Source of the DNA: a virus
Length of the DNA: 23,423 nt
Strand: one strand, 5' to 3'
Virus record (IMG/VR): IMGVR_UViG_3300015204_000012
Span: 1 to 23,423 of that record
This document shows, one piece after another, positions 6,442-21,539 of this stretch. Numbering within the stretch: the first letter of the stretch is position 1; every line of letters starts with the position of its first letter. The notes under the pieces were generated by a model. It was not told the origin of the DNA. It saw only the letters and a list, made by a program, of their open reading frames with translations, and made no database searches. The translations under genes were made by a program, and so were the position numbers.

Positions 6442-6750
6442 TCAGGCGGCCAAGTCCAAAGGGCACTGCGGGAGCGTCGGGAACGGGATCCCCGGAAGCT
6501 TGATCGACAGGCTCAGGCTCGGGAGCGAAAGCGAGAACCCGGGAAGCCGGAGCGAGATTGAAGGCAAGCTAGGAATAGGCAGCCCAGGAAGCTTGATGCT
6601 CAGCGACAGAGACGGGAGCGCGAGCGAAAAGCCCGGCAGCCGGAGCGAGATTGAAGGGAGGCTCGGGATTGGCAGCCCCGGAAGCTTGATCGACAGGCTC
6701 AGGCTCGGGAGCGAAAGCGAGAAGCCCGGCAGATGGCAGAGCGACCCCAT
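6442..6750 (-). CDS. tandem-repeat protein directly after the spike gene (possible spike-tip or needle component)
   Basis: The product has 102 residues. ATG at 6750 overlaps the spike gene's stop as TGATG, so translation is probably coupled. The protein is built from a 31-residue unit: LPGFSLSLPSLSLSIK followed by LPGLPIPSLPSISLR. Copies start at residues 7, 38 and 69, the third cut short and varied (IPFPTLPQ). It ends CPLDLAA. Leu/Ile alternates with Ser, broken by LPG or LPS turns, which suggests a stack of short beta strands. There are almost no charged residues. The place after gpV suggests something fitted to the spike tip or the inner tube end. That is inference, and I recognise no named family. 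Confidence 0.7.
   Translation of the reverse strand: MGSLCHLPGFSLSLPSLSLSIKLPGLPIPSLPSISLRLPGFSLALPSLSLSIKLPGLPIPSLPSISLRLPGFSLSLPSLSLSIKLPGIPFPTLPQCPLDLAA
6466..6732 (-). repeat. 93-bp in-frame tandem repeat, about 2.9 copies
   Basis: The landmark gaagcttgat (plus strand) recurs at 6495, 6588 and 6681, exactly 93 bp apart. Copies one and three are nearly identical over roughly 40 bp around this site, while the middle copy differs (cagcgacagagacgggagcg). The pattern suggests repeat expansion or gene conversion rather than convergence. The period is 31 codons, so copy number can change without breaking the frame. Confidence 0.9.
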
Positions 6751-7370
6751 CAGAACATAATGGAAGGATTCGGTGGCATCGCCGCGCCGCCGGCGAAAGG
6801 CTTCGGCGCCATCCCGAGCGCCACGAGACCGCCGCGGACGAAGCACTGAGGCGAGAGCACCTGGAAGTGGTCGTCGGCGAGCTCCAGCGCAGAGCCGCCC
6901 TTGGTCACGACGATGAGCCCGTTGGGCCCAAGCTCGAGCTGGCCCCATTGGTTGAACAGGATGATCTTCCCGTCCTTCTCGATCGAGATCCCGGCGTCCG
7001 TTGACGCGCCTTGCTGAAGGAGCGCAATCGACCCGTCCGCGTTGCAGCGAATCGTGTTTTTGCCGGTGCTCCACATCGCGACGTCGCCCTCATTGAGCGC
7101 GCCGTGACAGACCGCGCCGCGCATGTCGCGGGTGGCGGTGATGATCCGTTTTCCCGCCACGTGCTGCGCGATGGCGTCGCACTTCCCGCCAGCGCTCGGC
7201 TTGCTAGGACGGTAGGAGAACCCGTAGTGCGACCAGATCTCTGCGTTGGTCTGGTCCTGCCCATCGGTCTCGCCAGCGAGGCGGATCGACGCGGTGGCGA
7301 TCGCAGGCCCGTTGTCCGTCGCCGTGGCGCCCCAGTTGCTTTCGGAGACCTCGACCCAGTCGATATCCAT
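6750..7370 (-). CDS. tail spike / baseplate assembly protein V (Mu gp45-like)
   Basis: The product has 206 residues: the central spike at the hub, used to pierce the outer membrane. It follows the hub gene and precedes gp46, as in Mu. The C-terminal half holds the short-strand beta-helix pattern of gpV proteins (GDVAMWSTGKNTIRCNADGS, then ISIEKDGKIILFN). A Gly/Ala/Pro-rich tail follows. There is an odd N-terminal OB-like portion with DIDWVEVSESNWGATATDNG. ATG at 7370 overlaps the hub's terminal TTA as TTATG, with AGGGA six nt upstream. TGA at 6750-6752 overlaps the next ATG. Confidence 0.78.
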   Translation of the reverse strand: MDIDWVEVSESNWGATATDNGPAIATASIRLAGETDGQDQTNAEIWSHYGFSYRPSKPSAGGKCDAIAQHVAGKRIITATRDMRGAVCHGALNEGDVAMWSTGKNTIRCNADGSIALLQQGASTDAGISIEKDGKIILFNQWGQLELGPNGLIVVTKGGSALELADDHFQVLSPQCFVRGGLVALGMAPKPFAGGAAMPPNPSIMF

Positions 7371-8647
7371 AACGATCCCTGACTGACCCAGTAGGTCACG
7401 CTGCCGCCGCCGCCGAGGGTCGTCGCGACGAACGCGCCGGTCTTGGCCGGGCTCTTCGTGCCAGCGTCCTTCGCCGCGTCGACGTATGGCTTGATTCCCG
7501 TAATTGACTCGTCAGGCTGCCAATCGAGCACGAGCGTCCCTAGCGGGAGAAGCTTCAGCTTCGTGCGCTTGCCCGAGCGCGATACCTGAAAGGTGCGCTC
7601 CTCGACCCACAGCGGGCCTTCCACGCCCTGTTTCTCGTCGTTGACGGTAGCAACGCAGTCGACGCCATACACGTTGCCGGTGGCCCTGTCAGACAGGCCG
7701 GCGACCGTGCACTCGTAGGAGAAGTAAGACCGCATCTGCTTCGCCAGAAAGAGCCGCGCGATTACCTCTGCCTTCTCCTGCGTGCCGGCGTGTTTGTCAC
7801 GGATGTAGGCCGGGACAAAGTTGCGCACTACGGGGTTTGTGATCATCGAAACGACTTTGCCCTTGGGGCCAGCGCCGCCGTCGAGGCCGCGCACGTACAC
7901 GTGAGACGGGACCTTGCCCTCGTCGAGTGTGACGGATGCGTCTTCCATGTTGTTGCCCTTGCCGACGCCGGTGCTTTTCGGGTCGTGCAACATGGTCAAA
8001 GTGTAGATGCTTTTTTGCGCGTAGTCCGGCCCGGCGATGATCACTCCAGTTCCATCGGGGCAGGCGCGGATCCAGTAGCCGTAATGGCCGAGGATTCGCG
8101 AGAGGTAGGAAAAACCGCCCTCGTTGTCCTGCGGCTTCAGGTCCTTCAGCGCGAGGTCGCGCGCGTGGCGGCTCTCGTACTTCTTCTTCTTGCCGGTGCC
8201 TGATCCGATCGCGACGTCGCTCGGAATGGCGTCGTCGAAGATCGTATACTGAAGGTTGAACGTCTTGACGATGACGAGCTGGACGAGGTCCGCGATTGTC
8301 ATCTTCTCGTCCGTCTGTAGCCGCGGATCGATGTTGCCCGCCACGAACGGCGCCAGGATGTCGCGGCCGGAGATAGAGACCTTCGTACCGCCGTGCCCGC
8401 TGGTCGAGATACTCGTCTTGTCGATCCATCCGGTGAGCTGCGGCTTTTCGTTCACCAGAATCTGTACCGCCGCGCCGTTCGGGAGCTTGCGGCAGAGGTC
8501 GGGGCCGGCGAACTCGGAGCCGCACTCCAACGTGAACTCCTGGCACGGCTTCAGGTAGGAGTCGGTGACCGTCGCGGACTCGAAGAACAGAAACTCGTCG
8601 CCGCTGTCAAGATTGCGGACTTTGAACTCGTCAAGCTCGGCGGCCAT
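7370..8647 (-). CDS. baseplate hub / tail protein (Mu gp44, gpD-like)
   Basis: I count 425 residues from ATG 8647 to an in-frame TTA at 7372-7370. It resembles gp44/gpD hubs: an N-terminal beta domain with NEKPQLTGWIDKTSIS and VSISGRDILAPFVAGN, a LysM-like helical insert, FSYLSRILGHYGYWIR, and a C-terminal LPLGTLVLDWQPDE. In Mu the hub joins tube to spike. Reading past the TTA would add 155 residues rich in Arg, Ser and Pro that overlap most of the spike gene in another frame (to 6905), which is not credible protein. The expected end is at the TTA, which forms TTATG with the spike start, like a TAATG or TGATG overlap. Confidence 0.8.
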
Positions 8648-8650
8648 GGG

Positions 8651-9559
8651 TCACGCGTAGACGAACACGAGCGAGCCGGCGCGCACTGTGGCACGGTCAG
8701 CGGCGCCCGGGTTCATCCGAAGGAAGTCATCGATTGGCGTGTTGAACAGCGTCGCAATGGCCGTTGCAGGAGCCTGCGCGCGGACGCTAACGGCGGTGAT
8801 CGGCTTGCCCTTCAGCTTCGCGTTCAGGGCGATGAAGACGACGGCGTCAAAGGCCCGCGTGAGCGCGTCAAGAGCCTTGTACGCCTTCGGGTCGCCGGTT
8901 GCGGCGATGGAGTCTCGAAGCTCGCCAAGCGCCCCGAGCATCCCGTCCACGCCCGATCCGATGTTGCCGACGCCCATCCTGAACATTGCCAGCGCGCCCG
9001 TGAGGCGCTTCATCGATTCGAGGAGCGACGGCGCCACCGCGTCCGGGTAGACCGGAATCGGGCTGATGTTTCCAATCGCGTTGTCGAGGTCACGCGCGGC
9101 CGAGAGTGCCTGCGCTGTGGGGCTCGCCTGCTTGAGGAGATCGGTAAGCTCGTCCTCCGCGGCGGGCGATTCGATGAATACGACGTCGACGTCGACGCCG
9201 TCGCGACGCATCATGTCGAAGGACGTATCCATCGACTTGCACTTGACGCTGATCGGCCCGAGTTCCGGGTGCACCAGCGTGCCGGTGGACTTATCTGTGC
9301 AGGCGGCGACGAACGCGCGCCAGTTCACCGGGTATTGCGGGACGGTAGAGCCAGCGATTCCGTTCCGGAAGTAGGCGGTAAACTTGTACGTTGCGGGGTC
9401 GCGGCCGGTGCCTTCGATAAGGCCCGCGTCACGGTCCGGGAAGAGGTGCGCCGACTGCCCTTGCTCGAAGGAAAACGACCACGGCCCGCAGTAGAACGCC
9501 ACGTTGCGAAACGACGGCGTCAACAGATTGCGGGCAATGTCGAGATCGGAAGGGGGCAT
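8651..9559 (-). CDS. DNA circularisation protein N-like / tail protein (Mu gp43)
   Basis: The product has 302 residues from ATG 9559. The N-terminus matches the DNA_circ_N family of Mu gpN: NLLTPSFRNVAFYCGPWSF, HLFPDRDAGLIEGTGRDP, YKFTAYF, and the region with GTLVHPELGPISVKCKS followed by VDVVFIES. The C-terminal 45 residues resemble a LysM unit (PIDDFLRMNPGAADRATVRAG). In Mu this protein sits between tape measure and hub. In the standard code there is no stop between the tape measure and this gene, so both form one 1052-codon frame (8651-11809). An in-frame TTA at 9565-9563 lies 3 nt before this ATG, and I treat them as two genes. The ribosome site is weak (CCGGAACC). Confidence 0.78.
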   Translation of the reverse strand: MPPSDLDIARNLLTPSFRNVAFYCGPWSFSFEQGQSAHLFPDRDAGLIEGTGRDPATYKFTAYFRNGIAGSTVPQYPVNWRAFVAACTDKSTGTLVHPELGPISVKCKSMDTSFDMMRRDGVDVDVVFIESPAAEDELTDLLKQASPTAQALSAARDLDNAIGNISPIPVYPDAVAPSLLESMKRLTGALAMFRMGVGNIGSGVDGMLGALGELRDSIAATGDPKAYKALDALTRAFDAVVFIALNAKLKGKPITAVSVRAQAPATAIATLFNTPIDDFLRMNPGAADRATVRAGSLVFVYA

Positions 9560-9562
9560 CGG

Positions 9563-11809
9563 TAAGGTTCCGGTGATGGGGTCTGCTGCGGAGCTTCGCC
9601 CGCTGGCCGCGATTGCGGCGATGAGGCTTTCCATCCCGGTCACGGCAACCGTCGCGCCCTGTGCGAGCTGTGTAGGTTTGTCGAGTCCGGCGCGAAGCTC
9701 GGCGATGATCGGATCGATGTTGGCGTTCGATTGGTTCTGCTGCTGCGTGCCAATCGTCGCCTCGTAGGCGCCTCTCCCGAGCGCGGCGAGAGGGATCGCC
9801 GAGGCGATGTTTCCCGCGCTGATGTCGCCCGATGCGATCCCGCGGTATCCTGCGGTCGCACCCGACACGAACTTACCGAGAACACCGTCCTGGCCGCTAC
9901 GGTCCGATTCAAGCCGGTCGAGGACCGATGCCGCGTATTCCTTATCCGCGACAGTGCCGCGCTTCATGGCCCCGAGCGCGTTCAGCCCGGCTCCCTGCGC
10001 GGAGTTTGCGCCGGCCTGCTTGGCGTCCAGGCTAGTGTTCGCCGACTCCGCGGTGAGGCTACCAATCGCGCCACCGAGCACCGCGCCGAGCCCAATCGCG
10101 CCGAGCGCTCCGCCCATGCCGCCAGGAGCAGCGGCGCCACCTCCGCCGGATAGTGCGTTGGTGATCAGTTTTCCGATCCCGGCCACTGCCAGCTCTTTCA
10201 GAATGTATCCACCGATGACGGCGCCGAGTCCGACGAACGGGTTTTTTGCGAACAGATCCGCCAGCGCCGACACGCCGGATGCCGCCTTTTCTGCGGCAGG
10301 CGCAAGCTTGATGAGCGCCGGCAGGACCTTGTCCGCGAGCCCAGCGACGAGCGTATCGAGCTTCTGCTGGAAGACGGCGGCCTTAGACGACGTGGTGTCC
10401 ATGGAGCGGTCAAAGGACTCTTGGACCTCGCCGCCTCCCATGGCCGAGCTTTTCAAGCGCTTGAACTCGGCGCGCACGGCAGCCTCGCCTGCCTTGCCTC
10501 CGCCCGCCGCGTTGTACTTGGTCGCGAAGCCGCGCGTTACGCGCTGAGCCTGGGCGTCAGCAATCATGCCGCCCATCTTGGTCTTGTTGCCCTTGGTGGC
10601 ATTGAGCATGTTCACAATCAGGTCTTCCGGATCGAGAAGCCTCCCACTCTTGTCTTCGACCTTGGACATGTCGCCGCCCATCTGGGCCGCCATCGACTTG
10701 CGCCGCGCGCCCTTCGAGAACTGATTGACGAACGAGCCTACCGACGTCGCCGCCTGGCTTGCGGATGCCGCGCCGCCGCTTGCCCGCGCCTCCTGCGCGA
10801 GGGCGCCAAGTGCGCCCATGGTGCCGCCGATGTCTGGGCTGGAAAACTCCGACGCGCGCGCGGCAAGCTTTGCCATCTGCGACGCCATATCCTTGATCTC
10901 GACCGCGCCAAGCTTGCCCTGTCCGGCTACCGTCCGCATGACGGTGTCGACGATCTTCATTCGCTCGCCAGCGTCCGCGACGTCACCGAGCTGCGCAGCA
11001 ACGTTGCCCGCGCCCATCGCCATGTCGCCTAGACTCGACCCGGTGGCCTTCGCGAGCTTCGCGAGGTTGGCGATCGAGCCCATCGACGTGGACAGATCGC
11101 CGGACACGCTGGTCATGTCGGCCATGGCCTGAATGACCTCGGTGGGGTCCGTCGCGGTCTGGAGCCCTACCCCGCTCGCCAGGCCCATGATCTCCGACGT
11201 GTCCCGCCGCTTGCCGTTGCTCTTGTCGCCCGCGATGTACCCGGCATTCGAGAGGTTCACGGCAAGGTTTTCCTGCGTCGTTCGCTGCCGGATCCCATGC
11301 GACAGGCTCAGGTCAACGCCGACGCCGTCCGAGAGGGCGCGCGCCGCGGTCATGGCGCCGCGCCCGACCGCCGAAACGCCCTTCATGAGCCCGACGCCGG
11401 CACCGCGAAGCACGGCGCCACCGACGCCCGAGAAGGCCCCCTGTGCGCTCCCTACGGCTCGGCTCTCGCGAGCCTGGCGCGCCACCTCTTGCCGATTCGC
11501 CTGGACCTGGACGCGCGCCTGCTCCCGCACAGACGCGGCGGCGATACGGGCTCGCTCGCGCCCCTCGTCTCGGGCGATCTGAATCTTCGCCTTGGACGCG
11601 TCGCGAACGGCCTGGACGCCGCCCTTCTCGGCAATCTTGCTGCGCTCGACGTGGCCCTTCATGGCCATGCGCTGCAAGTCCGCGTTGAGCTTCGCGCCGA
11701 TTCGCACCTGTTCGGCCGCGCTCTTGGCGAGCGACTGCGAGACGGTGCGCGTCATGCGATCGATGAGATCGCCGCCGCCGACCTTGAAGTTGATTACGAC
11801 GTTTGCCAT
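9563..11809 (-). CDS. tail tape measure protein
   Basis: I count 748 residues, ending at an in-frame TTA (9565-9563). The N-terminal 130 residues are charged, coiled-coil helices rich in Arg, Ala and Gln (for example ERSKIAEKGG, GRERARIAAAS). The middle holds the tape-measure core with GTMGALGALAQEARASGGAA, and then hydrophobic Gly/Ala-rich segments around residues 520-590 (FVGLGAVIGGYILKELAVAG, GGALGAIGLGAVLGGAIG). These are the likely membrane-active segments. The protein sets tail length and is threaded through the tube. It starts 4 nt after the end of the chaperone's -1 frame. Confidence 0.85.
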
Positions 11810-11813
11810 GGGG

Positions 11814-11900
11814 TCAGCGCTTAGGAAGACTCTTCTCGTACTGAGCCACGGCCCGCAGGATGCCGAGCACTAGGAGGAGGTCGGAGTCGGGGTAGTCCCA
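11814..11900 (-). other. -1 frame extension of the tail chaperone (possible programmed frameshift product)
   Basis: In the -1 frame relative to the chaperone, codons from 11900 read WDYPDSDLLLVLGILRAVAQ, then YEKSLPKR, and end in TGA at 11816-11814. That is 4 nt before the tape measure ATG. This sequence is helical and protein-like, while the zero frame over the same bases is a Ser/Thr/Pro-rich tail. The layout matches gpG/gpGT-type and Mu/P2-type chaperones, where a minority of ribosomes slip. I see no canonical X-XXY-YYZ heptamer nearby, so the slip site is not assigned. Translation by reinitiation is the other option. Confidence 0.55.
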
Positions 11901-12523
11901 GACTCCGCCGTCGACGCCGCAAGCGCCTCCCGCACCTCGACCAACGACCTCACGCAGTATTCGCAGAGGATCGCCAGCCGCGCGTGCGGCAAGTAGGCGA
12001 AAGGGTCGGCAAGCACCCCCTTCGCGATCGTCGTCACCCAGTCCTCAAGCTCGGACTCGGTAAGCTCAAGCAGCTTCGGGTGCGTCGAGTCTTTGAGGCG
12101 AGCGTAGGTAGCCGCCAAGACGCCAAACTCTTCCGCGTTGAAGTGCTCCCGCGCCTCAATGACGCCGTTCTCGAAGAATGGCTTACTCGGGTCGTCGGCG
12201 TCGCGGCACGCGATCGCGACGATCTCCGTAACCCGCGCGTTGTATTCGAGCTCCTCCGGCTTCCACCCGAGGTCATCGCCCTTGCCGACGATCCCAGCGA
12301 CGTACCGCCGAGCGTTGGCGAGCGCGAGGTCCTCTTCCCGCACCGAAAGGAGGCGGATGAACACCTTGCAGATCGAATTCCCGTCCACGTCGAACCGCGG
12401 GAAGTCGATTACCTTGAACGGCGGCCTGCCGCGCGAGATGAGTTCGGCGACCACAGAGGACGGAGACATGCCCTTAGGCGGGCCGTTCTTGCCTACGGCG
12501 CTTAGCGCTTCAGATGCTTTCAT
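11870..12523 (-). CDS. tail assembly chaperone (Mu gp41/gpE-type)
   Basis: The product has 217 residues and ends in TAG at 11872-11870. It sits between tube and tape measure, where contractile phages encode the tape-measure chaperone. The fold-like part runs from residue about 35 (PPFKVIDFPRFDVDGNSICK) to 205, with mainly helical sequence such as EEFGVLAATYARLKDSTH. The last 20 residues are Ser/Thr/Pro-rich and look like a linker. A separate coding-like -1 frame continues to 11814 (next entry), as expected for the longer chaperone form. The ribosome site GAGGG lies partly inside an 18-bp stem (12532-12594). Confidence 0.78.
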   Translation of the reverse strand: MKASEALSAVGKNGPPKGMSPSSVVAELISRGRPPFKVIDFPRFDVDGNSICKVFIRLLSVREEDLALANARRYVAGIVGKGDDLGWKPEELEYNARVTEIVAIACRDADDPSKPFFENGVIEAREHFNAEEFGVLAATYARLKDSTHPKLLELTESELEDWVTTIAKGVLADPFAYLPHARLAILCEYCVRSLVEVREALAASTAESGTTPTPTSS

Positions 12524-12531
12524 GTGGATCC

Positions 12532-12594
12532 CTCAATAAGCCCTCGATGACGCCATGCCCGGAAAGGCTAGTCCGCCATCGAAGGCTTATTGAG
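12532..12594 (-). promoter_or_regulatory. 18-bp inverted repeat ending at the chaperone ribosome binding site
   Basis: Arms at 12532-12549 and 12577-12594 with a 27-nt loop. On the minus-strand transcript all 18 positions can pair (17 Watson-Crick, one G-U at 12543/12583). On the plus-strand transcript the same position would be a C-A mismatch, so the structure favours minus-strand RNA. There is no U-run, so it is not a standard terminator. The 3' arm ends GAG immediately before GGATCCACATG, so the stem includes part of the chaperone's GAGGG ribosome site. It may lower chaperone translation or act as a processing site. Confidence 0.7.
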
Positions 12595-12621
12595 ACCGGC
12601 GAGCGCGAGGCTCGCCAAGGC

Positions 12622-12999
12622 TCACAACGTCGACGCGTTCGCGGGCTCGCCGATGAAGTCGAACGAGACGCTGGCCGCTTGGTTCACCCCGAACTGCTGC
12701 TTCACGTTCGTGATGTAGCCCTTGCAGGTCGTCTTCTGCGAGTGCCCGAACAGGGTCATCTCCACGACCGTGAGGCCTTGGAGCGACGCGAGATAGTCGA
12801 CCTCGAACCCAACGCGAGGCACGGCCGAGTTCACCGAGATGCGCGTAATTTCGGCGCCAGGCGAGATGCCTGCGAAGCCCTTCTGTTGGGTGAAGATCGG
12901 CTGCAACTGCGGGTCGTGCTCGAAGTTGAAGTCGGTCGTTTCGGCGAGGAGCGCGCCGTCCTTGAACAGGGCACCCTTCTCGTAGGCTTGCAAACTCAA
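12622..12999 (-). CDS. tail tube protein (probable TTG start)
   Basis: I assign 125 residues from TTG at 12999. AGGCAGGG lies 7 nt upstream, and the sequence (SLQAYEKGALFKDGALLAET) is protein-like from there. The longer open frame reaches 13263, but its extra part is Arg-rich, crosses a terminator and overlaps the sheath gene, so it is rejected. The beta-rich remainder includes EHDPQLQPIFTQQKGFAG, EVDYLASLQGLTVVEMTLFG and CKGYITNVKQQFG, and fits the inner tube (Mu gpM) between sheath and chaperone. An alternative TTG lies two codons downstream. Confidence 0.8.
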   Translation of the reverse strand: MSLQAYEKGALFKDGALLAETTDFNFEHDPQLQPIFTQQKGFAGISPGAEITRISVNSAVPRVGFEVDYLASLQGLTVVEMTLFGHSQKTTCKGYITNVKQQFGVNQAASVSFDFIGEPANASTL

Positions 13000-13066
13000 T
13001 GTGATACCCTGCCTTTCATGGTGTAACGGAGTCGCCGCGCACGCGCGAGATGCGCGCTTCGCATAG

Positions 13067-13108
13067 AAAAAAGCCCCCAATGCACGGAGGGGAGACGTGC
13101 AAGGGGGC
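13067..13108 (-). terminator. intrinsic terminator between sheath and tube genes
   Basis: On the minus strand: GCCCCC, TT, GCACG, a 9-nt loop, CGTGC, ATT, GGGGGC, then TTTTTT. The outer stem (13073-13078 with 13103-13108) and inner stem (13082-13086 with 13096-13100) are perfect, separated by a small internal loop. The six Ts lie at 13072-13067. It follows the sheath stop by about 80 nt and precedes the tube start by about 70 nt. It works in the minus direction only. Confidence 0.88.
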
Positions 13109-13116
13109 CGCTTGTG

Positions 13117-13134
13117 AGGCGCGTAGTCGCGCCT
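13117..13134 (-). promoter_or_regulatory. second hairpin upstream of the terminator
   Basis: A perfect 7-bp stem, AGGCGCG and CGCGCCT around a 4-nt loop, lies between the sheath stop and the terminator. It may stabilise the 3' end of the sheath mRNA or be part of a composite terminator. The region 13000-13186 holds no other gene. I see no confident promoter for the tube in it. Confidence 0.5.
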
Positions 13135-13186
13135 TCGTTTGTGTTGCCGCGGTCGTGTCCCCTCGATCGCGCGGCTTCGGGTTGGG

Positions 13187-14752
13187 TCAGACGCTCGGCG
13201 AGGACTCCTCGACAAGAAGCGCCGTCGCGTGGAGCATGATCGCCGCGTAGAACGGCGTCGCAACGTCCATTCTGCTCGGGTTGGTCGAGTTCACGCCGGT
13301 AGCCATGCCGAGGATCATCGTCTGAAGCTGCGACGGGTTGATCCAGCCATTGTTGTTGTAGTCCCGCATGAGCGTCTCGATCAACATCCGGGTGCGCTTC
13401 GGCGTGTTGAAGGCGGCCGGGGGCTGCTTCGAGTTCGAGTCGATCGGGTCGTCGGTGATCTTCGAGAACGGCGCGTTACGAATCTTCGCCGCCGCGTCTC
13501 CCGCGAACTTATCCGCGAGGGTGACGACGCTCGTATCCCGAGCACGGTAGTCCGCGGTGCCGCCGTTCAGGCTTCTGGTCGTGACGCTTCGCACGATATA
13601 CGCCGTGCCAGCGTCCGATACGCCGATGGGGGTAACGCCGTTGTTGAGCGCGGTCAGGAAGTCCGTCGCCGGGACGGGCCAGTTCGCGACCAGCGCGGGG
13701 GCCTTGAGCTGGAAGTTGTTGCCGCTCTTCAGGCCGTACGAGTCGTAGTTGGTGCTAGGGTCGGAGATCTCCGAGAGCACTCGAACCGCCGCCACAGAAG
13801 CCGCAGTGAGGTAGTGCTCCTCGGGCGACGCGTTCTGATTCGCGAGTTGCATCCGCGGGTTGTTGAGGCCGGTCGCCACGGTGGTCGCCGCCGAGGTCGA
13901 GAGGCTCGAGCCCGAGATGACCTGCTGCCTAAAACCGGTCGTCGGCAGCGCCTGCGAGAGCACCTGGGTCGAGAGCAGACCGAGGTTGGTCGCGTCCTGA
14001 ACGTGCGGAACGATGTAGTCGTACTTGGTCGCCAGCACCGTCGCGAGCGCATTGGTGTACGAGCACGCGGTGATTCCGATGGCCGCGCCGGCCTGGCCCG
14101 ACGTGCCGAAAGCGGCGTCCGGCTGCGTCGCCGCGCCGTTGTGGAGGAGGTTTGTGGCCGAGCCGCTTTGGGTGAACGCCGACCAGCGGATCGAGTTCGG
14201 CTCCGGGCCGACGATCTTCGCCGTGATCGTCAGAACGCCAATCGCAGAAGAGGAGGTGACGGGAAGGATTGCCTGCGCGTTGATGGCCGCGGCGAGGCCG
14301 GCGGCAATCGTGGTCACCGTGTCCGACGTGGTGAACGCGTAGGTGCAGATCACGTTGCAGACCGCGACGTTCGCCGTACCGGACGCGGCCGGGTTCGACA
14401 GAGACGAGAAGGTCAGCGTGAGCTTTTCCACCCCAGCAGATCCGGCCGAAACGGCGGGCGCCACGATAAAAACAAGCGCGCTCTTGCACAGCGAGAGGAA
14501 GCGCTTCGCCATACGGTGCGCGGGCGATCCGGCGCCACAGTCGGCAATGACGGCCGCTTCGGTGGCGTAAGGCCCGCCAACCGCGGTGTCCGGCGTGAGG
14601 GCGCCTGCGGCCGTCTTGCTGGCAATGATCAGGACCTTCTTGGGGCTCTGATCGCCGGCAACGTCGCCCTGCGCGTAGCGCACCTCGGCGTAGACGCCGG
14701 GAATGGGGCCGTTGGGGTCGATGCCGGTAAGCGGAATATTGAGAGTACCCAT
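13187..14752 (-). CDS. tail sheath protein (Mu gpL-like)
   Basis: The product has 521 residues, the contractile sheath around the tube. N-terminal features fit Mu-type sheaths: NIPLTGIDPNGPIPGVYAEV, then KKVLIIASKTAAGALTPDT and the segment AVIADCGAGSPAHRM. The C-terminal part (MRDYNNNGWINPSQLQTMIL, then PFYAAIMLHATALLVEE) carries the conserved sheath core. Ribosome site GGAGGG is 7 nt before ATG 14752, and TGA is at 13187-13189. It is followed by the terminator at 13067-13108. Confidence 0.88.
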   Translation of the reverse strand: MGTLNIPLTGIDPNGPIPGVYAEVRYAQGDVAGDQSPKKVLIIASKTAAGALTPDTAVGGPYATEAAVIADCGAGSPAHRMAKRFLSLCKSALVFIVAPAVSAGSAGVEKLTLTFSSLSNPAASGTANVAVCNVICTYAFTTSDTVTTIAAGLAAAINAQAILPVTSSSAIGVLTITAKIVGPEPNSIRWSAFTQSGSATNLLHNGAATQPDAAFGTSGQAGAAIGITACSYTNALATVLATKYDYIVPHVQDATNLGLLSTQVLSQALPTTGFRQQVISGSSLSTSAATTVATGLNNPRMQLANQNASPEEHYLTAASVAAVRVLSEISDPSTNYDSYGLKSGNNFQLKAPALVANWPVPATDFLTALNNGVTPIGVSDAGTAYIVRSVTTRSLNGGTADYRARDTSVVTLADKFAGDAAAKIRNAPFSKITDDPIDSNSKQPPAAFNTPKRTRMLIETLMRDYNNNGWINPSQLQTMILGMATGVNSTNPSRMDVATPFYAAIMLHATALLVEESSPSV

Positions 14753-14755
14753 GGA

Positions 14756-15082
14756 TCAGCCCTCCTTCGCGGGCGGCGCTGCGAGCTTCGGCGCGGAGAG
14801 AGAGAGCGGGGCGGGAGCGGAGAACGGGAGTCCGAGCACGTCCGCGGTTGCCTTGTCGGCGCAATGAAGCTCGCCGGCCTTGCACGCGTTGACGTACCAA
14901 GACCGGTGCATCCCGAGCTCTCCGTGGGACATGCGGATACACGACGCATCGGCGTCGAGGGTGTAGCGGGTCTCGGACTCGCTCCAGCTTTTGCCGATGA
15001 ACGCGCGGCGCTGCGCGAATTGCATGGCGTGTACGTCGCAAACGTCGACGGCGTCGACGCCGCGGAATCGCAACTCAATCAT
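14756..15082 (-). CDS. small protein upstream of the sheath (Mu gp38 position)
   Basis: The product has 108 residues. It lies between the gp37-like tail terminator and the sheath, where Mu carries the small gp38 (DUF2635). It has four cysteines (DVCDVHA, ASCIRMS, NACKAGELHC) and an Ala/Pro/Ser-rich C-terminus. It is longer than usual DUF2635 proteins, and I cannot show the family motif. CCGAAAGGGAGC lies upstream of ATG 15082, in a leader block shared with the capsid gene (15090-15120). Confidence 0.55.
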   Translation of the reverse strand: MIELRFRGVDAVDVCDVHAMQFAQRRAFIGKSWSESETRYTLDADASCIRMSHGELGMHRSWYVNACKAGELHCADKATADVLGLPFSAPAPLSLSAPKLAAPPAKEG

Positions 15083-15089
15083 CGGGTGC

Positions 15090-15120
15090 TCCCTTTCGGT
15101 AATTTGTGGCTAAGCCGACG
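15090..15120. repeat. leader block of the gp38-position gene, with 10-nt insertion
   Basis: Plus-strand tccctttcgg, then a 10-nt spacer (taatttgtgg), then ctaagccgacg. On the minus strand it holds the TTA that ends the gp37-like gene and the GAAAGGGA site before the gp38-position gene. It matches the capsid leader at 18816-18836 except for the spacer, which would be consistent with a 10-bp insertion or deletion between short GG repeats. Confidence 0.75.
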
Positions 15121-15833
15121 TCGCTCTGAACAACGACGGTCGGCACGACGTCGAGGCCGGTACTGTCGCCAACGGTCGCCGTCACGGTCGCGTACGTGAA
15201 TACGTTCCCGGTGTTCGTGGCGTCGAAGTTGTCCTCGCGGACCACCTTGAGACTCGCGAAAAACGCCGGCATGAAGTGACCTTGGTCGTGCCCCGCGAGG
15301 AAGCCGAACTCGGCGGTCTCCCACCAAAGCTCCTGCACACCGGCGAGCGCCCACGGGTTTGCCCCGAGCGTGCTACCGACCGGGGTATAGGCCGGGTCGC
15401 CGCGCTTCTCGGTGAGAAGCAGGAGCAGGTTCCACGCGGATGTGAGGATTGGGCTCACGCGTTGATACTGGTCAAACGCCATCGCAGGGAGGACGTAGCG
15501 GATCCCGTAGTGAAAGACGGCGTTGTCCTTCTCGAGAGAGTGCCGAGCGAACTCGACACGCATCGGGAAGATCGAAAGCAGCGGCGGCCTGATCGGGGTG
15601 AACGAGTCGAGCCACGGCTCGGGGTCCACCTGCGTCGTCGTGGGGCACGCTTGGTTTGTGGCGACCGTTACCTGGCCGCCCATCGCGTTGACGTAGGAGG
15701 TCGTGAGGTAGTTGTTCAGACCCCACTGGTAGAAGTCGATCACCCGATAGAGGAACTGGTCGGCATACGGCTGGACGAACGCGCCGGTGCCCGCTGCGAG
15801 CGGGAACGATTCGCCTGCTATCAGGAGCGCCAT
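15111..15833 (-). CDS. tail terminator / neck protein in the gp37 position
   Basis: I count 240 residues to an in-frame TTA (15113-15111). In the standard code it continues 12 residues to TGA at 15075, overlapping the next start and swallowing that gene's ribosome site. Sequence features are AGTGAFVQPYADQFLYRVID, LLSIFPMRVEFARHSLEKDN and LLLLTEKRGDPAYTPVGSTL. In synteny with Mu gp37 it would cap the tail tube and join it to the head. Position gives most of the evidence. ATG 15833 overlaps the end of the upstream gene as TTATG. Confidence 0.6.
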
Positions 15834-16291
15834 AAGAGCCCCGACAGGTCAGCTGCGATCATGGCCGCCTTATCGGCGCGCGCTGCCAGCACGGGCTCGG
15901 AGAGCGTGGCCTCGCCCTCTTCATAGCGGAGTGGCTTGGTGCCTGGGTGGAAGACGCGCTTCGCGAACCGGACCGAACCGTTCACGACGAAGCGTAGCGC
16001 GCCAGCCTTCCGTGCCTCGATTACGTGCGCCACCGTGCCCTTGTCGAGGAAGGTCGCGATCTTGTTCTTCGACTGCACGCGCCAGTGGCCTGACTTGACC
16101 CTGGTAGACTTGAAGCTAGCTGCCGTCTTGCCGCTGCGATTCGTCCAATACATCCCGACCTGGATCCGAAAGAGAGACTCTTTCGCGGTCTGCTCCGCGG
16201 CGTCGTCGAGCCGGTCCTGGAGAATGGCCGCGAACGTCGTGAGCCCCTTCACGGCGGGCCCAATATCTACGTTGTAGGTGACGAACGGCAT
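15833..16291 (-). CDS. HK97 gp10-like / virion morphogenesis (gpG-type) head-tail protein
   Basis: I count 152 residues to the TTA at 15835-15833. The standard frame runs on only four codons to TGA at 15821-15823. The core LDKGTVAHVIEARKAGALRF, then FAKRVFHPGTKPLRYEEGE, contains the HPGTKP motif of HK97-gp10/virion morphogenesis proteins. These act at the neck or tail completion step. It starts at ATG 16291, directly at the end of the gp36-like gene, and its own end forms TTATG with the next gene. Confidence 0.75.
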
Positions 16292-16758
16292 CAGAAGTCC
16301 CCGCTGTTCGTCTGGCCGGTGGCCGCGTCGATCATGGTTCGCGGCGCGTTGTCGTAGACGATGCCGCCGACGTTTCCAGGCTTGGTGGCGCCGAGGAAGT
16401 CGGGCATGTATTGGATTCCATCCACGAGGCGCTTCAGTAGCTCGATGGCCGCCGTGTTGTAGTCCTTGCGGACGCCCTTCATCGTGTTGCGGATGTACTC
16501 GGGTCGTCGGTCGTAGAGGAACTCGACGGCCTTGTAGAGTGCGGCCTCCTGCATCATTGCTGGCGCTGGGCTCTGTGTGATCGGGAAGGGACCGACGTAG
16601 TTAGCGGCGAGGAAAGAATCCACCCACGCACTCGCTCGCGTCGTGATGAACGTGATTACGCCAGCGCCCGGCGATCCGGTGTTCGTGTCGTCGGTCAGGG
16701 CAAGGAGCGCCGGTAGGCCGATCGTGTTCTGGATGTCGGACTGCGAGACGTACGCCAT
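16291..16758 (-). CDS. head-tail adaptor, DUF1320 / Mu gp36-like
   Basis: The product has 155 residues. The N-terminal half matches gp36/DUF1320: MAYVSQSDIQNTIGLPALLA, then GVITFITTRASAWVDSFLAA followed by NYVGPFP. Helical segments follow (MMQEAALYKAVEFLYDRRPE). It links the portal ring to the tail. ATG 16758 has GAGGT about 8 nt upstream. The stop TGA at 16293-16291 touches the next gene. Confidence 0.82.
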   Translation of the reverse strand: MAYVSQSDIQNTIGLPALLALTDDTNTGSPGAGVITFITTRASAWVDSFLAANYVGPFPITQSPAPAMMQEAALYKAVEFLYDRRPEYIRNTMKGVRKDYNTAAIELLKRLVDGIQYMPDFLGATKPGNVGGIVYDNAPRTMIDAATGQTNSGDF

Positions 16759-17258
16759 AAGCTGTACCTCAGCGGCCGGCCGACATTGTCAGGGGTGATC
16801 GCCATCTGCGGCACACACTGAAAGGTTTTTCGATCCATCTCCACGCGACGCACTTCGCCCATTGAATAGGCCGGTGTGGCGCCGCTCCCCTTGGGGGCGT
16901 TGTCCGCGAGGAAAGGCTCGATGTTGTCGCGGTGGCCGCAAACAAGGACCCGCTTGAAGTAGCGCTCGGACTTCGAAAGCATCTGATCCAAGAGGATCGA
17001 GATCGGAAACTGCGTCTGCAAGAGCGGGTGCTGCTGCACCTCGATACCGAGCAACGTGCCCATGATCCGGGCCGTGTCGATGGTGCGCTGAAACGGCGAA
17101 CAGATGATGAGCTTGGGGCACTCGCCCATCTGGACCATCCGCTGCGCTACGGCGGCCACAGTCTGCCGCCCTTCGGACGTGAGCCCGCGTGCCCGTTCTA
17201 CGTAAGGGTCGCTAGAGTACGCGCCCGCGTATCCGTGCCTTTGCATCCAGAGTTTCAT
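16758..17258 (-). CDS. SixA-like phosphohistidine phosphatase (histidine phosphatase superfamily)
   Basis: I count 166 residues from ATG 17258 to TTA at 16760-16758. It has the full catalytic set of the histidine phosphatase fold: R7-H8-G9 (MQRHGYAG), R58 in CSPFQRTIDTAR, and H109 in VCGHRDNIEPFL. The stretch RARGLTSEGRQTVAAVAQRM is typical of SixA proteins (R-x-LT-x-G). SixA removes phosphate from histidine phosphotransfer proteins and from a PTS component (NPr). It lies between head genes and overlaps both neighbours: 47 bp with the previous gene, and one base (TTATG) with gp36. Past the TTA the standard frame adds 21 out-of-frame residues. It is an unusual cargo in a head operon. Confidence 0.8.
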
Positions 17259-17490
17259 GGTTGCTCGTGTCGATATGGATGCGCGGCATACCGGCGTCGC
17301 CGGCCTTCATGTGGCTCTGCGCGGCCTCGTTTCGCACGAAGGCCCACCACGCCGCCTCGCGTAGCGAAACGCTATCAAGCGGGCTCTTGGCCCCGAGCGC
17401 GACAAGCGCCGCGAACGGGTCCGATGCGTCGTCGAAAGATACGCGGCCCGCCGCGCCATTGGCGTACGCGACCGCGATCTCGTGCTTCAC
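17212..17490 (-). CDS. small head-region protein, unknown
   Basis: I assign 92 residues from GTG at 17490, which overlaps the upstream stop as GTGA, to TAG at 17212-17214. The longer open frame above 17490 is Arg-rich and overlaps the upstream gene, so it is rejected. Sequence features are a helical segment (DASDPFAALVALGAKSPLDS), then LREAAWWAFVRNEAAQ and a terminal HIDTSNHETLDAKA. No family is recognised. It overlaps the phosphatase start by 47 bp, so the pair may be translationally coupled. Confidence 0.6.
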   Translation of the reverse strand: MKHEIAVAYANGAAGRVSFDDASDPFAALVALGAKSPLDSVSLREAAWWAFVRNEAAQSHMKAGDAGMPRIHIDTSNHETLDAKARIRGRVL

Positions 17491-17678
17491 TTCCGCGCTT
17501 GCTGCTGCGCCGCGGCGGCGTCGGGAAGCATCTTGGCCATTCCGAGTGCCACCGGCTGCGCCATATCCGCTTCCTCCCATTCCGCAACGTCGCCGACGGT
17601 GAGCCACTCGCGGCTGTCGCCGGACGTGTCCGGCTTTGCGATGGTACCGTGTAGAATCTCGAATCTTCGCTTTGCCAT
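17487..17678 (-). CDS. small protein after the capsid gene (Mu gp35 position)
   Basis: The product has 63 residues. ATG 17678 has GAGAGGGG about 9 nt upstream, and TGA at 17489-17487 overlaps the next GTG. The sequence (MAKRRFEILHGTIAKPD, then WLTVGDVAEWEEADMAQPVA) is compact and hydrophilic. In Mu a similarly small gene (gp35) follows the capsid gene. I cannot claim family identity beyond position and size. It may be a minor head or neck component. Confidence 0.65.
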   Translation of the reverse strand: MAKRRFEILHGTIAKPDTSGDSREWLTVGDVAEWEEADMAQPVALGMAKMLPDAAAAQQQARK

Positions 17679-17701
17679 GTAAGAATCCCCTCTCTACAGG
17701 C

Positions 17702-18808
17702 TAACTGCCAGGCCGCTTTGATAACGCCGCCGACGATATTCGAGGTGATTACCTCGGCGTCGTTGTGGGTGACCACGATCTCAACACCACCGCGCGGGCC
17801 CTTGAATTGGTTGAAGAACGAGCGCACCTGGAAGCCGCCTTGCATGGTGGTGTCCTGCGACTGAGCACCGGTCCAGCGGAACGTGAACGAGGTGGCGATC
17901 GTCATGCCGTCTTTCGGCGCGTTGACCTCCTGGTGAACGAACGCAACGTCGTTGCCCCAGACGTAGTCGTAAATATTGGCCGCGGTCAGCGTCTTCATCG
18001 CTGCCACGAGGATCTGCGGGAGTCCGAGGAGCGCGTTGGTGCCCTGGATATCGGTCGGCTGCCCCGGGAGGCCAGGCACGTTGAACTTCGCCTGCGTGAA
18101 CTTCTGGACCTGCGCGTTCTTCACGAATGAGTGCCAGACGCGCTCGGACATCACCATGTGCGTCACGGGCTGGAGCGACTTCTCCATGATCGTGTAGATG
18201 TCGTTGATCGGGTCGCTCGACGCGCCGCCATTCCACTTGTTGAGGGCAGGCTCGGTGATTACGACGGAAGGGTCAAAGTTGGCCGCCGTGGTAAGCAGCG
18301 CGCCCACGCGCGCCTCGCGTGCCTGGATAAGCACGTTCATGCATCGCTGCATCGCGTTGAGCTGCGGCGCAAGCGGGTTGTCCGCGTTCGCCATGATCTC
18401 AGTGGGGATGAAGGCGCCCACGGCGTAGCCAATGGTCGTGAAGAGCGTGTTGCTCAGACGCGGGTTGACTTGTTTGACGGTTGCGCCGGGGGACGCGACG
18501 ATGTCCTGTACCGGCTGGAACGCGTCGAGCTTGTCCCACTGGAAGTACTTGTCCGACGCGTTCGTGGTCGGGAGGACCGGCGAGACGGTATCGGCAAGAC
18601 CCTGCTGGAGACGAAAGCCAGCCGCGTAGTTGGCAAGCGCCTTTTCGATGTGGACGTCGCTCTGTCCGAGGTCCATCTTGACGAGGCGTCCGCCGCCATC
18701 GGCGTAAGTTGCGGTGCGCGAATCAGGATCGAAGTCCGTCATCGCCTTCACACCGGTGCCGGCGAAAGCCCGGCCTGCATCGAGCATCTGGATCTTCTGC
18801 TTAGCCAT
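17702..18808 (-). CDS. major capsid protein
   Basis: I count 368 residues from ATG 18808, with GAAAGGGA upstream, to TTA at 17704-17702. The size and sequence fit a HK97-fold coat. Features are LSNTLFTTIGYAVGAFIPTE, then MANADNPLAPQLNAMQRCMN, HMVMSERVWHSFVKNAQVQK, FNVPGLPGQPTDIQGTNALL and a terminal THNDAEVITSNIVGGVIK. The last segment is the usual C-terminal end of such coats, so the chain should stop after AAWQ, exactly at the TTA. In the standard code there is no stop, and 109 out-of-frame residues rich in Arg and Ser would follow to 17375. It also lacks a stop between itself and the decoration gene. Confidence 0.85.
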
Positions 18809-18815
18809 GTTCGTT

Positions 18816-18836
18816 TCCCTTTCGGCTAAGCCGACG
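18816..18836. repeat. leader block of the capsid gene, shared with 15090-15120
   Basis: Plus-strand tccctttcgg joined directly to ctaagccgacg (21 nt). On the minus strand it carries the TTA that ends the decoration gene and the GAAAGGGA ribosome site of the capsid. The same two blocks recur at 15090-15120, separated there by 10 nt. Confidence 0.75.
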
Positions 18837-19477
18837 ATTTCATAAACGATGGTGCTCGTATCCGTACCGGACGAGCTGGTGATCACGAGCTGTGCGACGC
18901 CGAAGGCGCCAACGACAACCGTGTAGGAGAGGTGCCCCGGAGTACCGCCGGTGAGGCTGCGCGAGAGGAAGACCTTGCTGTTGGCGGTGATTGCGATACC
19001 GGTCAACACAGTGACCGTACCGGCCACGAGAACCGCCGATCCGACCTGAGCAAGGCCCGAGCCCTGCGGAGTCAGGAAGACGACCACGGGGTCCGCGTCC
19101 GCTGCCTGACTGAGAGACTGGCCCATCGCGGTGGGGCCGGTGGACTTGGTCACGCGGCCGAGCTTGGCGCCGTTGGTCGAAAGCATCACCGGGTCGCCCG
19201 GGTTGATAGCGCCGTCCGCCGAGGCGATTGCAGTGCCGAGCACGCGAACGCGCCCGTCACGTCCGGCCTTGAGGACCTCCATCGTGACACCGCACGCACC
19301 AGCAGGGTTACCGGCCGAGAGTGCGACCGTAACGCCGACAGTTTGGTTGATCAGCGAAAGGTTGACCGTGTCAATCAGGACCGCGGTGCCGGGCGGGATA
19401 TCGGTGCCCGAGTAGTTGTGGAATACGAAGTCGCCGCCCTGAACGGGCGTCGCCGACATCTGATTGTAGATTGCCAT
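18827..19477 (-). CDS. capsid decoration / cement protein (DUF2190-type plus C-terminal virion domain)
   Basis: I count 216 residues from ATG 19477 to TTA at 18829-18827. The N-terminal part resembles DUF2190-type capsid cement proteins: HNYSGTDIPPGTAVLIDTVN, then GRDGRVRVLGTAIASADGAI and PGDPVMLSTNGAKLGRVTKS. The C-terminal 70 residues are the phage domain with TANSKVFLSRSLTGGTPGHL, ending SGTDTSTIVYEIVG. In related proteins this motif is the chain end, so a stop is expected where the TTA lies. GGGAGGG is upstream of ATG 19477. In the standard code it is open on both sides, joined to scaffold and capsid. Confidence 0.78.
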
Positions 19478-19480
19478 AGC

Positions 19481-19963
19481 TAAACGCCCTCCCTGTGCAC
19501 GGTAGGCAGCTTCGGCCCTCATGACTTTGTCGTAGGCCTTGAGAGTGGCGTCCTCGAGGGACATGCCTTTCTCCTTTTGGTACTTGTCGACGAGAGCGAC
19601 CACGCTCGGGACGTCGTCGCGGCTAACCACCTTGCGCTCGCCGACGTCGCCCTTGTCCGCCCCATTCGAGGCAACGTCCTGGGTGAGGTGGCGCTGGTGC
19701 GCAGGCACGCTCGGGAAGAGCTTGCGGAACGAATCGCGGCTCGCGCGGGCGAGGATGAACATGTCCGCTTTGTCGGAATCCGACAGGCGCTTCACGTCCT
19801 TGTTGGTGAGGTAGGCCGCCTCGACTTCGGCGTGGAGCTCCTCGTCGTCGCGCTTGACCTTCTCGTCGCGGAGCAGTTTCACCTCGGCCTCAAGTGACGT
19901 AACGCGAGACTCTGCGTCCTTCAGCTTGAGCCGAGTTTCGGCGGTCTCGGTAGCATCGCTCAT
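19481..19963 (-). CDS. internal-start scaffold protein (Mu gpZ-like)
   Basis: An in-frame ATG at 19963 (residue 278 of the protease, MSDATETAETRLKLK) has GAGGA 10 nt upstream. The product would be 160 residues, beginning with a coiled coil of Lys, Glu, Asp and Arg. In Mu the scaffold Z is likewise made from an internal in-frame start of gene I, so I list it as a separate nested product. Its use is inferred from this site and the Mu analogy. Confidence 0.6.
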
Positions 19964-20794
19964 GGTGGTTGATTCCTCGTTGGCCGGCGGTGCCGGCGTG
20001 TTGTCTGAAAGTGCCGCGGCGATTGCCGCAGCCACGTCTTGGAGATCGCGATCCGTTTCGAGAACAGAGTCGCTCGAGTCCTTCGCCGCCATGGGGGCCA
20101 TGCCGTCGAGGAAGGGTTTGTTGGTGAGGCCGGCGCTCGTCATACGCGCGCCAATCGGCAGGCCCGTCACGCGGTCCTTGGCGCCGAAGCGGATGGCCGG
20201 GCTGATGAACTTGTACTGGCCCTGCTTGATGTACCCGGACGCCAGTTGGCCCCACTCGACCTCGCCCCAGAGACCGTTCTGCCCGCGGTTGTCGAGGTTG
20301 GTGATCCATCCCTGCGCGGGTGCGCCGCGAGTAGGGATGTCACCTTCGGCCGCGTCGGCTTCGGATGCGTGCTCGAAGTCGATCGGGATGGCGCGATTGC
20401 TGGTCGCCTTGAAGTTGCCGACGATCTCGTCAAACACCTGCGGCGTAAGCGCAAACTCGCCTGCACTGTGGCCCTTGAAGGCGCCCACCTTGCCGAGCTG
20501 TACCCAGACGCGCTTGGCCTCGGATGCGTCGCCGAAGAGCGCGCGGTCGAGGTAGGCGCACGGTCGGATCGTGTCTTCCAGCAGCACGGATTCCCCTTCG
20601 TCCGCGTACGACACGGAGACTGTTTTCTGCTGCGCGTTGACCGCCACTTTCATCCGGCGCTTGCGCTTGGCGGACTTGGGTGCGGCAGCGGCAGCAGTGC
20701 CAACCGCGGGCGAGTTGAGGCTCGACCCGTTCGGCTTATTGGTGGCCGGCCCAGTGCCGGTGCTGGCAGCGGGCGTTGTGACTTGGATAGGCAT
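19481..20794 (-). CDS. capsid maturation protease with scaffold domain (Mu gpI-like)
   Basis: I count 437 residues from ATG 20794 to TTA at 19483-19481. Residues 100-235 match the Mu I/phage I-like protease: NRAIPIDFEHASEADAAE, then GAPAQGWITNL, GLWGEVEWGQLASGYIKQG and QYKFISPAIRFGAKD. From about 278 a charged coiled-coil scaffold follows, itself with an internal start. The protein would self-cleave and process head proteins during maturation. The first 47 residues are Ser/Ala/Thr/Pro-rich, so ATG at residue 48 (MKVAV) is an alternative start. In the standard code the frame continues without stop through decoration and capsid to 17375 (1139 codons). Confidence 0.82.
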
Positions 20795-20798
20795 TCGC

Positions 20799-21539
20799 TA
20801 ACCAATTCTGGACAGTGAAGTTGCCCGCGCTGATGTCGGCGTTGTTCAGCGTGCCGGCCGCAAGCTGTGCGTTCAGCGCAAGCGTGGCGGTGCCGACGAG
20901 CCCGGGAGTCGGCGCGGCAGCGAGGCCGTAGTTGACCGTCGACGCGGTGGTGTTCGGCGTGATGCGGGCGAAAACAAATTGCGAGTTGGTCGCCGAGAGG
21001 ATCGGAACGTTCGCGACCGTCGCTGCGCCGGCGATCAGGGTGACCAACTGCGTCACGCTGCGCGGGTAGAACGAGAGCGCCGTGGTTCCAACCACGATTG
21101 GCCCGAGCGTGACCAGCTTCCACGTGCTCAGCGCGTACAGCGCGCCTTCGGTAACCTCGCAGATCTGACCGGGGAGGACGTACCCCTGTGCGAAGTCCGC
21201 GGCGCGGGTCAGGACGAACTTGGCGCCTGCGCCACCGAGTGCGGTAACGGTGTAGATGCCGTTGTCCGCGCCAGCGACACCGGCGACGAGGAGCACGCGG
21301 TTGCCCACGGCGGGGGCAACGCCGTCGATCGTCGCAAGCGCGCCAACGGCGTTGGCGGTGAGGACGCCGGCGACGTTGGTGTACGCGGGCAGCGCCGCGG
21401 CGGTTGCCAGACGGCAGGCGCGCCCGAGGGCGTTGATGTCGGCTGCGGCGCTTGTGGCGGTCGCGTTCAGGGCGTCGCAGATCGCCTGCGGGTTGCCGCC
21501 GATGATCTGATTGTTCGGGATGACGATCGAGGTGGCCAT
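20799..21539 (-). CDS. virion surface or fibre-type protein between portal and protease
   Basis: I count 246 residues from ATG 21539 to TTA at 20801-20799. It has the phage surface motif LATIDGVAPAVGNRVLLVAG, followed by NGIYTVT, a middle with FVLTRAADFAQGYVLPGQIC, and STWKLVTLGPIVVGTTALSF. This pattern is common in fibre and capsid-surface proteins. The place between portal and protease, where Mu has gp30 (MuF), is unusual. Past the TTA the standard frame adds 21 residues to 20736, overlapping the protease start. Confidence 0.72.

Follow-up and report, generated by a model that had tools for sequence, protein, structure and literature searches.

Apparent termination at UUA in a clade of Mu-like tailed phages

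A structural gene block with TTA codons at gene ends

The window analysed here, which is the whole IMG/VR entry IMGVR_UViG_3300015204_000012 (23,423 bases, 65% GC), carries nearly all of its genes on the minus strand (Table 1). The gene content marks the window as the structural gene block of a Mu-like tailed phage, because it includes portal (PF06074), head protease, capsid, sheath, tape-measure, hub and baseplate genes. A Mu-type portal and a protease of the I-protein type (PF10123, E 2.1e-28) are both present, and the window matches Mu-like phages (Portal_Mu, Mu-like_Pro) in portal, protease, sheath, hub and gene order. The 23.4 kb record stops just upstream of the portal gene, and the stretch expected to hold genes for a transposase and transpositional replication lies outside it. 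Comparison of the window with known phages at the DNA level gave no match. We note that the histidine-phosphatase-like gene lies within the virion gene block, where it adjoins the head-tail adaptor gene, and that a small gene made up almost entirely of LPGFSLSLPSLSLSIKLPGLPIPSLPSISLR repeats (6442-6750, minus strand) follows the hub and spike genes.

Table 1. Features of the window and, in the last row, of related contigs. In the TTA rows the upper coordinate is the first base of the TTA on the minus strand, as listed in the preliminary description of this DNA; the TAA on the plus strand begins two bases lower, at the first coordinate given.
Feature	Position	Strand	Remarks
TTA end of gene 20799-21539 (...FTVQNW, TTA)	20799-20801	minus	next ATG 4 nt on (20794); G001 and G015 homologues have ...NW TGA there
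TTA end of Mu-like head protease gene 19481-20794	19481-19483	minus	PF10123; next ATG 3 nt on, same frame
TTA end of decoration-like gene 18827-19477	18827-18829	minus	capsid ATG 18 nt on, same frame; AAAGGGAAACGAAC ahead of capsid ATG
TTA end of major capsid gene 17702-18808 (...KAAWQ, TTA)	17702-17704	minus	phrog_1005; 14/14 relatives have TGA/TAA/TAG here
TTA end of histidine-phosphatase-like gene 16758-17258	16758-16760	minus	PF00300; TTATG overlap with head-tail adaptor start
TTA end of gene 15833-16291	15833-15835	minus	TTATG overlap with next start; relatives end at most one residue away with TGA or TAA; kept in L002
TTA end of gene 15111-15833 (...QSDVG, TTA)	15111-15113	minus	G004 homologue ...RSDVG TGA; G006 homologue ends TTA; kept in L002
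TTA end of tape-measure gene 9563-11809	9563-9565	minus	next ATG (9559) 3 nt on, same frame
TTA end of baseplate hub gene 7370-8647	7370-7372	minus	TTATG overlap with next start
Mu-like portal gene	21553-23142	minus	ends TGA; PF06074 E 5.6e-47
Tail sheath gene	13187-14752	minus	ends TGA; phrog_165 E 3e-42; tree marker
Baseplate J-like gene	4380-5930	minus	ends TGA; phrog_6
Virion gene	569-2263	minus	ends TAA (...AYGWT TAA); G004 homologue ...GYGWT TTA
Apparent shared TTA/TAA trinucleotide	G001 55974; G002 19006; G004 20860 (minus); G007 10854		convergent gene pairs

The preliminary description had claimed that the nine TTA codons lying in frame on the minus strand all fall at gene ends, that these genes lack a standard stop there and that each TTA adjoins or overlaps the next start. 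All of this was borne out: each TTA was the last codon of its gene and in frame with the gene upstream, and it either overlapped the following start as TTATG (three sites) or was followed by an ATG 3-28 nt on. All nine belonged to virion genes. As had been described, two genes ended in TAA (at 569 and 3086) and TGA and TAG were also in use, with 13 TGA, two TAA and two TAG among the remaining gene ends. At the hub TTA the coding signal left the hub frame and was taken up again in the frame that the next ATG opens, and GAGAGGGG preceded the ATG (17678) of the gene after the capsid gene.

TTA inside a gene, said to be absent in that description, was looked for and indeed occurred nowhere among the 7,224 interior codons that the curated genes comprise. 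The codons missing from this set were exactly TAA, TAG, TGA and TTA, so that conserved genes of the window contained neither TAG nor TGA internally. Even the rarest sense codons were still found (AGA 5, ATA 6), TTG was an ordinary interior codon (31 in the aligned genes) and TCA was used within genes. The expected number of interior TTA codons ranged from 5.5 to 17.6 between null models, and the probability of all nine TTAs falling at gene ends was about 1e-23. Out of frame, the same genes contained 44 TTA triplets, 29 in one of the remaining frames and 15 in the other.

Gene ends and codon use in related phages

Sheath, baseplate J, capsid and hub alignments, run against viral contigs, turned up about 40 relatives. 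Homologues carried standard stops exactly at the TTA positions of the window for the capsid gene (14 of 14) and for the genes ending at 20799 and 15111, and within one residue of it for the gene ending at 15833. TTA was found where other relatives have TGA, TAA or TAG in G001 (adaptor and p572), G004 (p572) and G006 (p15114). The adaptor gene ended in GACTTC TTA TG in G001 versus GACTTC TGA TG in the near-identical G002. L008 has GACTTC TTA TGTTCACC versus GACTTC TGA TGTTCACC in the near-identical L009. TTA, TGA, TAA and TAG swap at homologous ends and therefore behave as codons of one meaning. On the 71 kb contig G001, TTA also ended a gene that is not structural and lies upstream of DnaB, with a strong hairpin (z -4.6) within 15 nt after it, and a coding-potential screen of the whole contig gave no interior TTA. 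In convergent gene pairs of four relatives, the TTA stop of one gene and the TAA stop of the gene on the opposite strand appeared to share a single trinucleotide position.

The strongest single test was the codon count of L163, a clade member of 57.6% GC, in which none of 2,594 interior codons was TTA when 16-21 were expected. Related codons were plentiful (TTG 36, CTA 30, CTG 51, with 14 TCA in aligned genes) and the missing codons were again only TAA, TAG, TGA and TTA. In-frame TTAs were confined to the end part of two genes in L163, one of which runs TTATCCTTATG into the portal start (TTATG).

For clade and control contigs alike, each in-frame TTA of either strand was scored by coding potential. 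Clade contigs contained 19, none of them interior, with 15 at ends and four directly followed by a new in-frame ATG; contigs in which TTA encodes leucine gave 23 interior TTAs and 10 that were assigned to ends. For some gene ends of the relatives the call depends on coding potential and, since the screen alone makes false end calls, as in the controls, homology was preferred where present. In the annotated phages Mx8 and RC1, TTA lies mostly within genes; ordinary Mu-like phages such as Rhodobacter phage RC1 read TTA as leucine, unlike the window. A sheath tree of 36 rows placed the window, G001, G002, G004, G006 and L163 in one 15-row clade (support 100/98), within which there was no contig with TTA as leucine, such contigs falling in other clades. 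Several clade members have no in-frame TTA and are neutral, and the TTA-stop code is seen only in members having TTA. There were two exceptions to this grouping, both weak single-site cases with one TTA at an apparent gene end. At position 9242 of L099 (G013, the sheath of which is not in the tree) the TTA lies at the protease end ahead of the decoration gene, and at 5889 of L103 (G014, a long branch outside the sheath clade) it forms a TTATGG overlap.

Within the window (11840-11900, minus strand), the end of gene p11873 resembles a tail-assembly chaperone, possibly one made by programmed frameshifting. L011 (9769) and L115/G023 (7007) have a TTA six to seven codons before the stop of the tail chaperone, where others have TGA. 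These two TTAs were not counted as clean evidence, because the region may use programmed frameshifting.

Possible mechanisms and alternative readings

The position of TTA at gene ends, its exchange with standard stops at homologous positions, its absence from gene interiors up to and including the 57.6% GC relative, its recurrence in independent contigs and the grouping of these in one clade all support the first option of the preliminary description, an extra stop codon. On these sequence comparisons, UUA very probably terminates translation in these Mu-like tailed phages and does not stand for leucine, its meaning nearly everywhere else. The best explanation as a whole, which we consider probable, adds a host code in which tRNA-Leu(UAA) would be lost and UUA read by a release factor. 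The translating cell is presumably a bacterium, because the clade consists of tailed bacteriophages. We propose that the phages follow the code of this host, that its tRNA-Leu(UAA) may have been lost and that a release factor, most likely RF2, could terminate at UUA through a change of its codon-reading serine, with TGA, TAA and TAG remaining stops. Where UUA is a stop in labyrinthulean mitochondria and in peDinoflagellate plastids, RF2 carries a substitution at Ser204 and the matching tRNA is missing (PMC12574857), and a serine change as in these organelles would be the simplest model for a bacterial RF2. We lean slightly towards a host-wide mechanism of the RF2 type. A free-living bacterial lineage with UUA as a genome-wide fourth stop, an altered release factor, no tRNA-Leu(UAA) and phages adapted to this code is, in our judgement, somewhat more likely than not.

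A host was sought among 84,980 GTDB species genomes by rpsK followed by TTA, with no hit; the host lineage, if real, would thus be unsampled or would lack TTA at rpsK. Alignment of baseplate J gave no prophage of the clade in GTDB genomes. The DUF5131 and methylase matches of G001 are a loose and non-decisive pointer to Pseudomonadota as host. No release factor gene was present on 23 related phage contigs, no tRNA gene on the window and no tRNA-Leu(UAA) on the phage contigs scanned, and the sole tRNA call of the clade contigs was a tRNA-Asn antisense to a tail gene. Outside the clade, the large related phage G017 (L138, positions 120001-138550 of a 138.5 kb contig) has 29 tRNA genes at 7821-12244 that cover most amino acids; its tRNA-Leu set comprises GAG, CAG and CAA and none with the anticodon UAA. 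This set was left out as evidence, because two TTAs of G017 were scored as interior.

One alternative is that UUA is unassigned, the host having lost tRNA-Leu(UAA) with no adapted reader in its place, and that proteins end there because RF2 misreads the codon slowly or because stalled ribosomes are rescued. The absence of interior TTAs, which would be unreadable, fits this model, as does the rarity of TTA across the whole high-GC group and in a relative of 51% GC outside the clade (4 versus about 22 expected). However, TTA is used nearly as often as TGA in the window (9 versus 13), the capsid gene included, and recoded E. coli uses tmRNA to tag proteins that stop at an unassigned codon and then degrades them, so that phages fail to grow (PMC6207430). 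On that account we regard this alternative as unlikely. The related suggestion of the preliminary description, that UUA stalls ribosomes in a host short of its tRNA, is on the same grounds less likely than a UUA that is read as a stop.

Another possibility is that the phage itself drives the switch, removing tRNA-Leu(UAA) at a late stage of infection; UUA would act as a stop from that point only, and readthrough fusions would be made early. The restriction of the nine TTA stops of the window to virion genes would agree with this. Against it, the TTA upstream of DnaB in G001 ends a non-structural gene on a contig that has no interior TTA, the clade contigs offer no release factor and only the antisense tRNA-Asn call, and there was no candidate nuclease among the annotated genes, although annotation is partial; such a switch is very improbable.

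A change in the record, by which a sequencing or assembly error replaced TGA or TAA with TTA, was the second option of the preliminary description and is rejected as hardly conceivable. A single substitution does separate each TTA from TGA or TAA, but two of the sites were reproduced in an independent contig, IMGVR_UViG_3300015196_000083 (L002), which is 99.5% identical to the window over 5,929 aligned bases and has 31 substitutions, none of them at the TTAs at 15111 and 15833. Genes ended by TTA also occur at other positions in several more contigs, and errors at stops could not produce the depletion of interior TTA.

Nor is there any real chance that TTA is ordinary leucine, with tolerated C-terminal extensions or natural fusions and a high-GC rarity that misleads. 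Translated in this way, the genes of the window would extend by 4 to 702 codons, TTA included. Three of the nine readthroughs are in-frame fusions of neighbouring genes and two add fewer than 13 residues, which such a reading could accommodate. Yet passage through the protease TTA would join the protease to the decoration protein and the capsid (702 codons), giving a product of 1,139 residues, and passage through the tape-measure TTA would give a fusion with the DNA-circularisation/baseplate hub protein. The capsid would gain 108 residues, the hub 154 (the longest tail outside the fusions) and the G001 adaptor 461, out of frame across the next gene. Homologues all end at the TTA position, and control contigs with TTA as leucine do have interior TTAs. 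A +1 frameshift at TTAG was ruled out, as four of the nine sites read TTATGG or TTACCG, and so was misreading of a modified base, as TGA still stands at 13 gene ends and also occurs out of frame.

Relation to known codes

The preliminary description knew UUA stops only from mitochondria, which is outdated since a plastid case was reported in 2025 (PMC12574857). NCBI table 23, the code of Thraustochytrium and labyrinthulean mitochondria, has in common with the window a UUA stop alongside the standard stops, and a factor of the RF2 type with a changed Ser204 has been proposed there (PMC12574857). Table 23 is an organelle code of eukaryotes, whereas the present case is a clade of tailed bacteriophages of 57-74% GC. 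In the peDinoflagellate plastid code, UUA occurs only at gene ends and ends a large share of genes, as in the window (PMC12574857), but UCA is a stop as well, whereas TCA is a sense codon inside genes of the clade (window and L163). Mitochondria of Marsupiomonadales likewise have UUA only at gene ends (PMC12574857), but there UUG is also a stop, via an altered mtRF1a, in contrast to the interior TTG codons of the clade. Because UCA and UUG stay sense, the code of the clade is neither of these two; as regards UUA it is similar, among the codes listed, to table 23, but it belongs to a virus of bacteria. Recoded phages (codes 4 and 15, for example the crAss-like phages with code 15) also depart from the standard code, but in the direction of stop to sense, with TAG or TGA encoding an amino acid (PMC9523058), and the clade goes from sense to stop.

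In the literature searched, UUA stops, like sense-to-stop changes in general, were reported from organelles only, that is, from mitochondria and one plastid lineage, and the authors of the plastid study presented theirs as the first change from sense to stop to be seen beyond mitochondria (PMC12574857). The clade described here would be the first case of a leucine-to-stop change outside mitochondria and plastids and, if true, the first sense-to-stop genetic code of bacteria and their viruses. Codetta, which infers codes from nucleotide sequence, is blind to sense-to-stop changes (PMC9825746), which would explain how a UUA-stop code could be missed in bacterial surveys. Standard gene callers would fuse or extend genes ended by TTA, and the gene calls and proteins of such phages in public databases would be wrong. 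A bacterial host with a UUA stop would provide a test of how release factors shift specificity, of whether the loss of a codon in GC-rich genomes comes before its capture as a stop and of whether a fourth stop shields a lineage from foreign genes. The outside relative of 51% GC, G022 (L158), has at least one clearly interior codon among its four TTAs. It is a possible intermediate stage of codon avoidance and, as speculation, fits a path on which UUA first became rare and was later captured as a stop.
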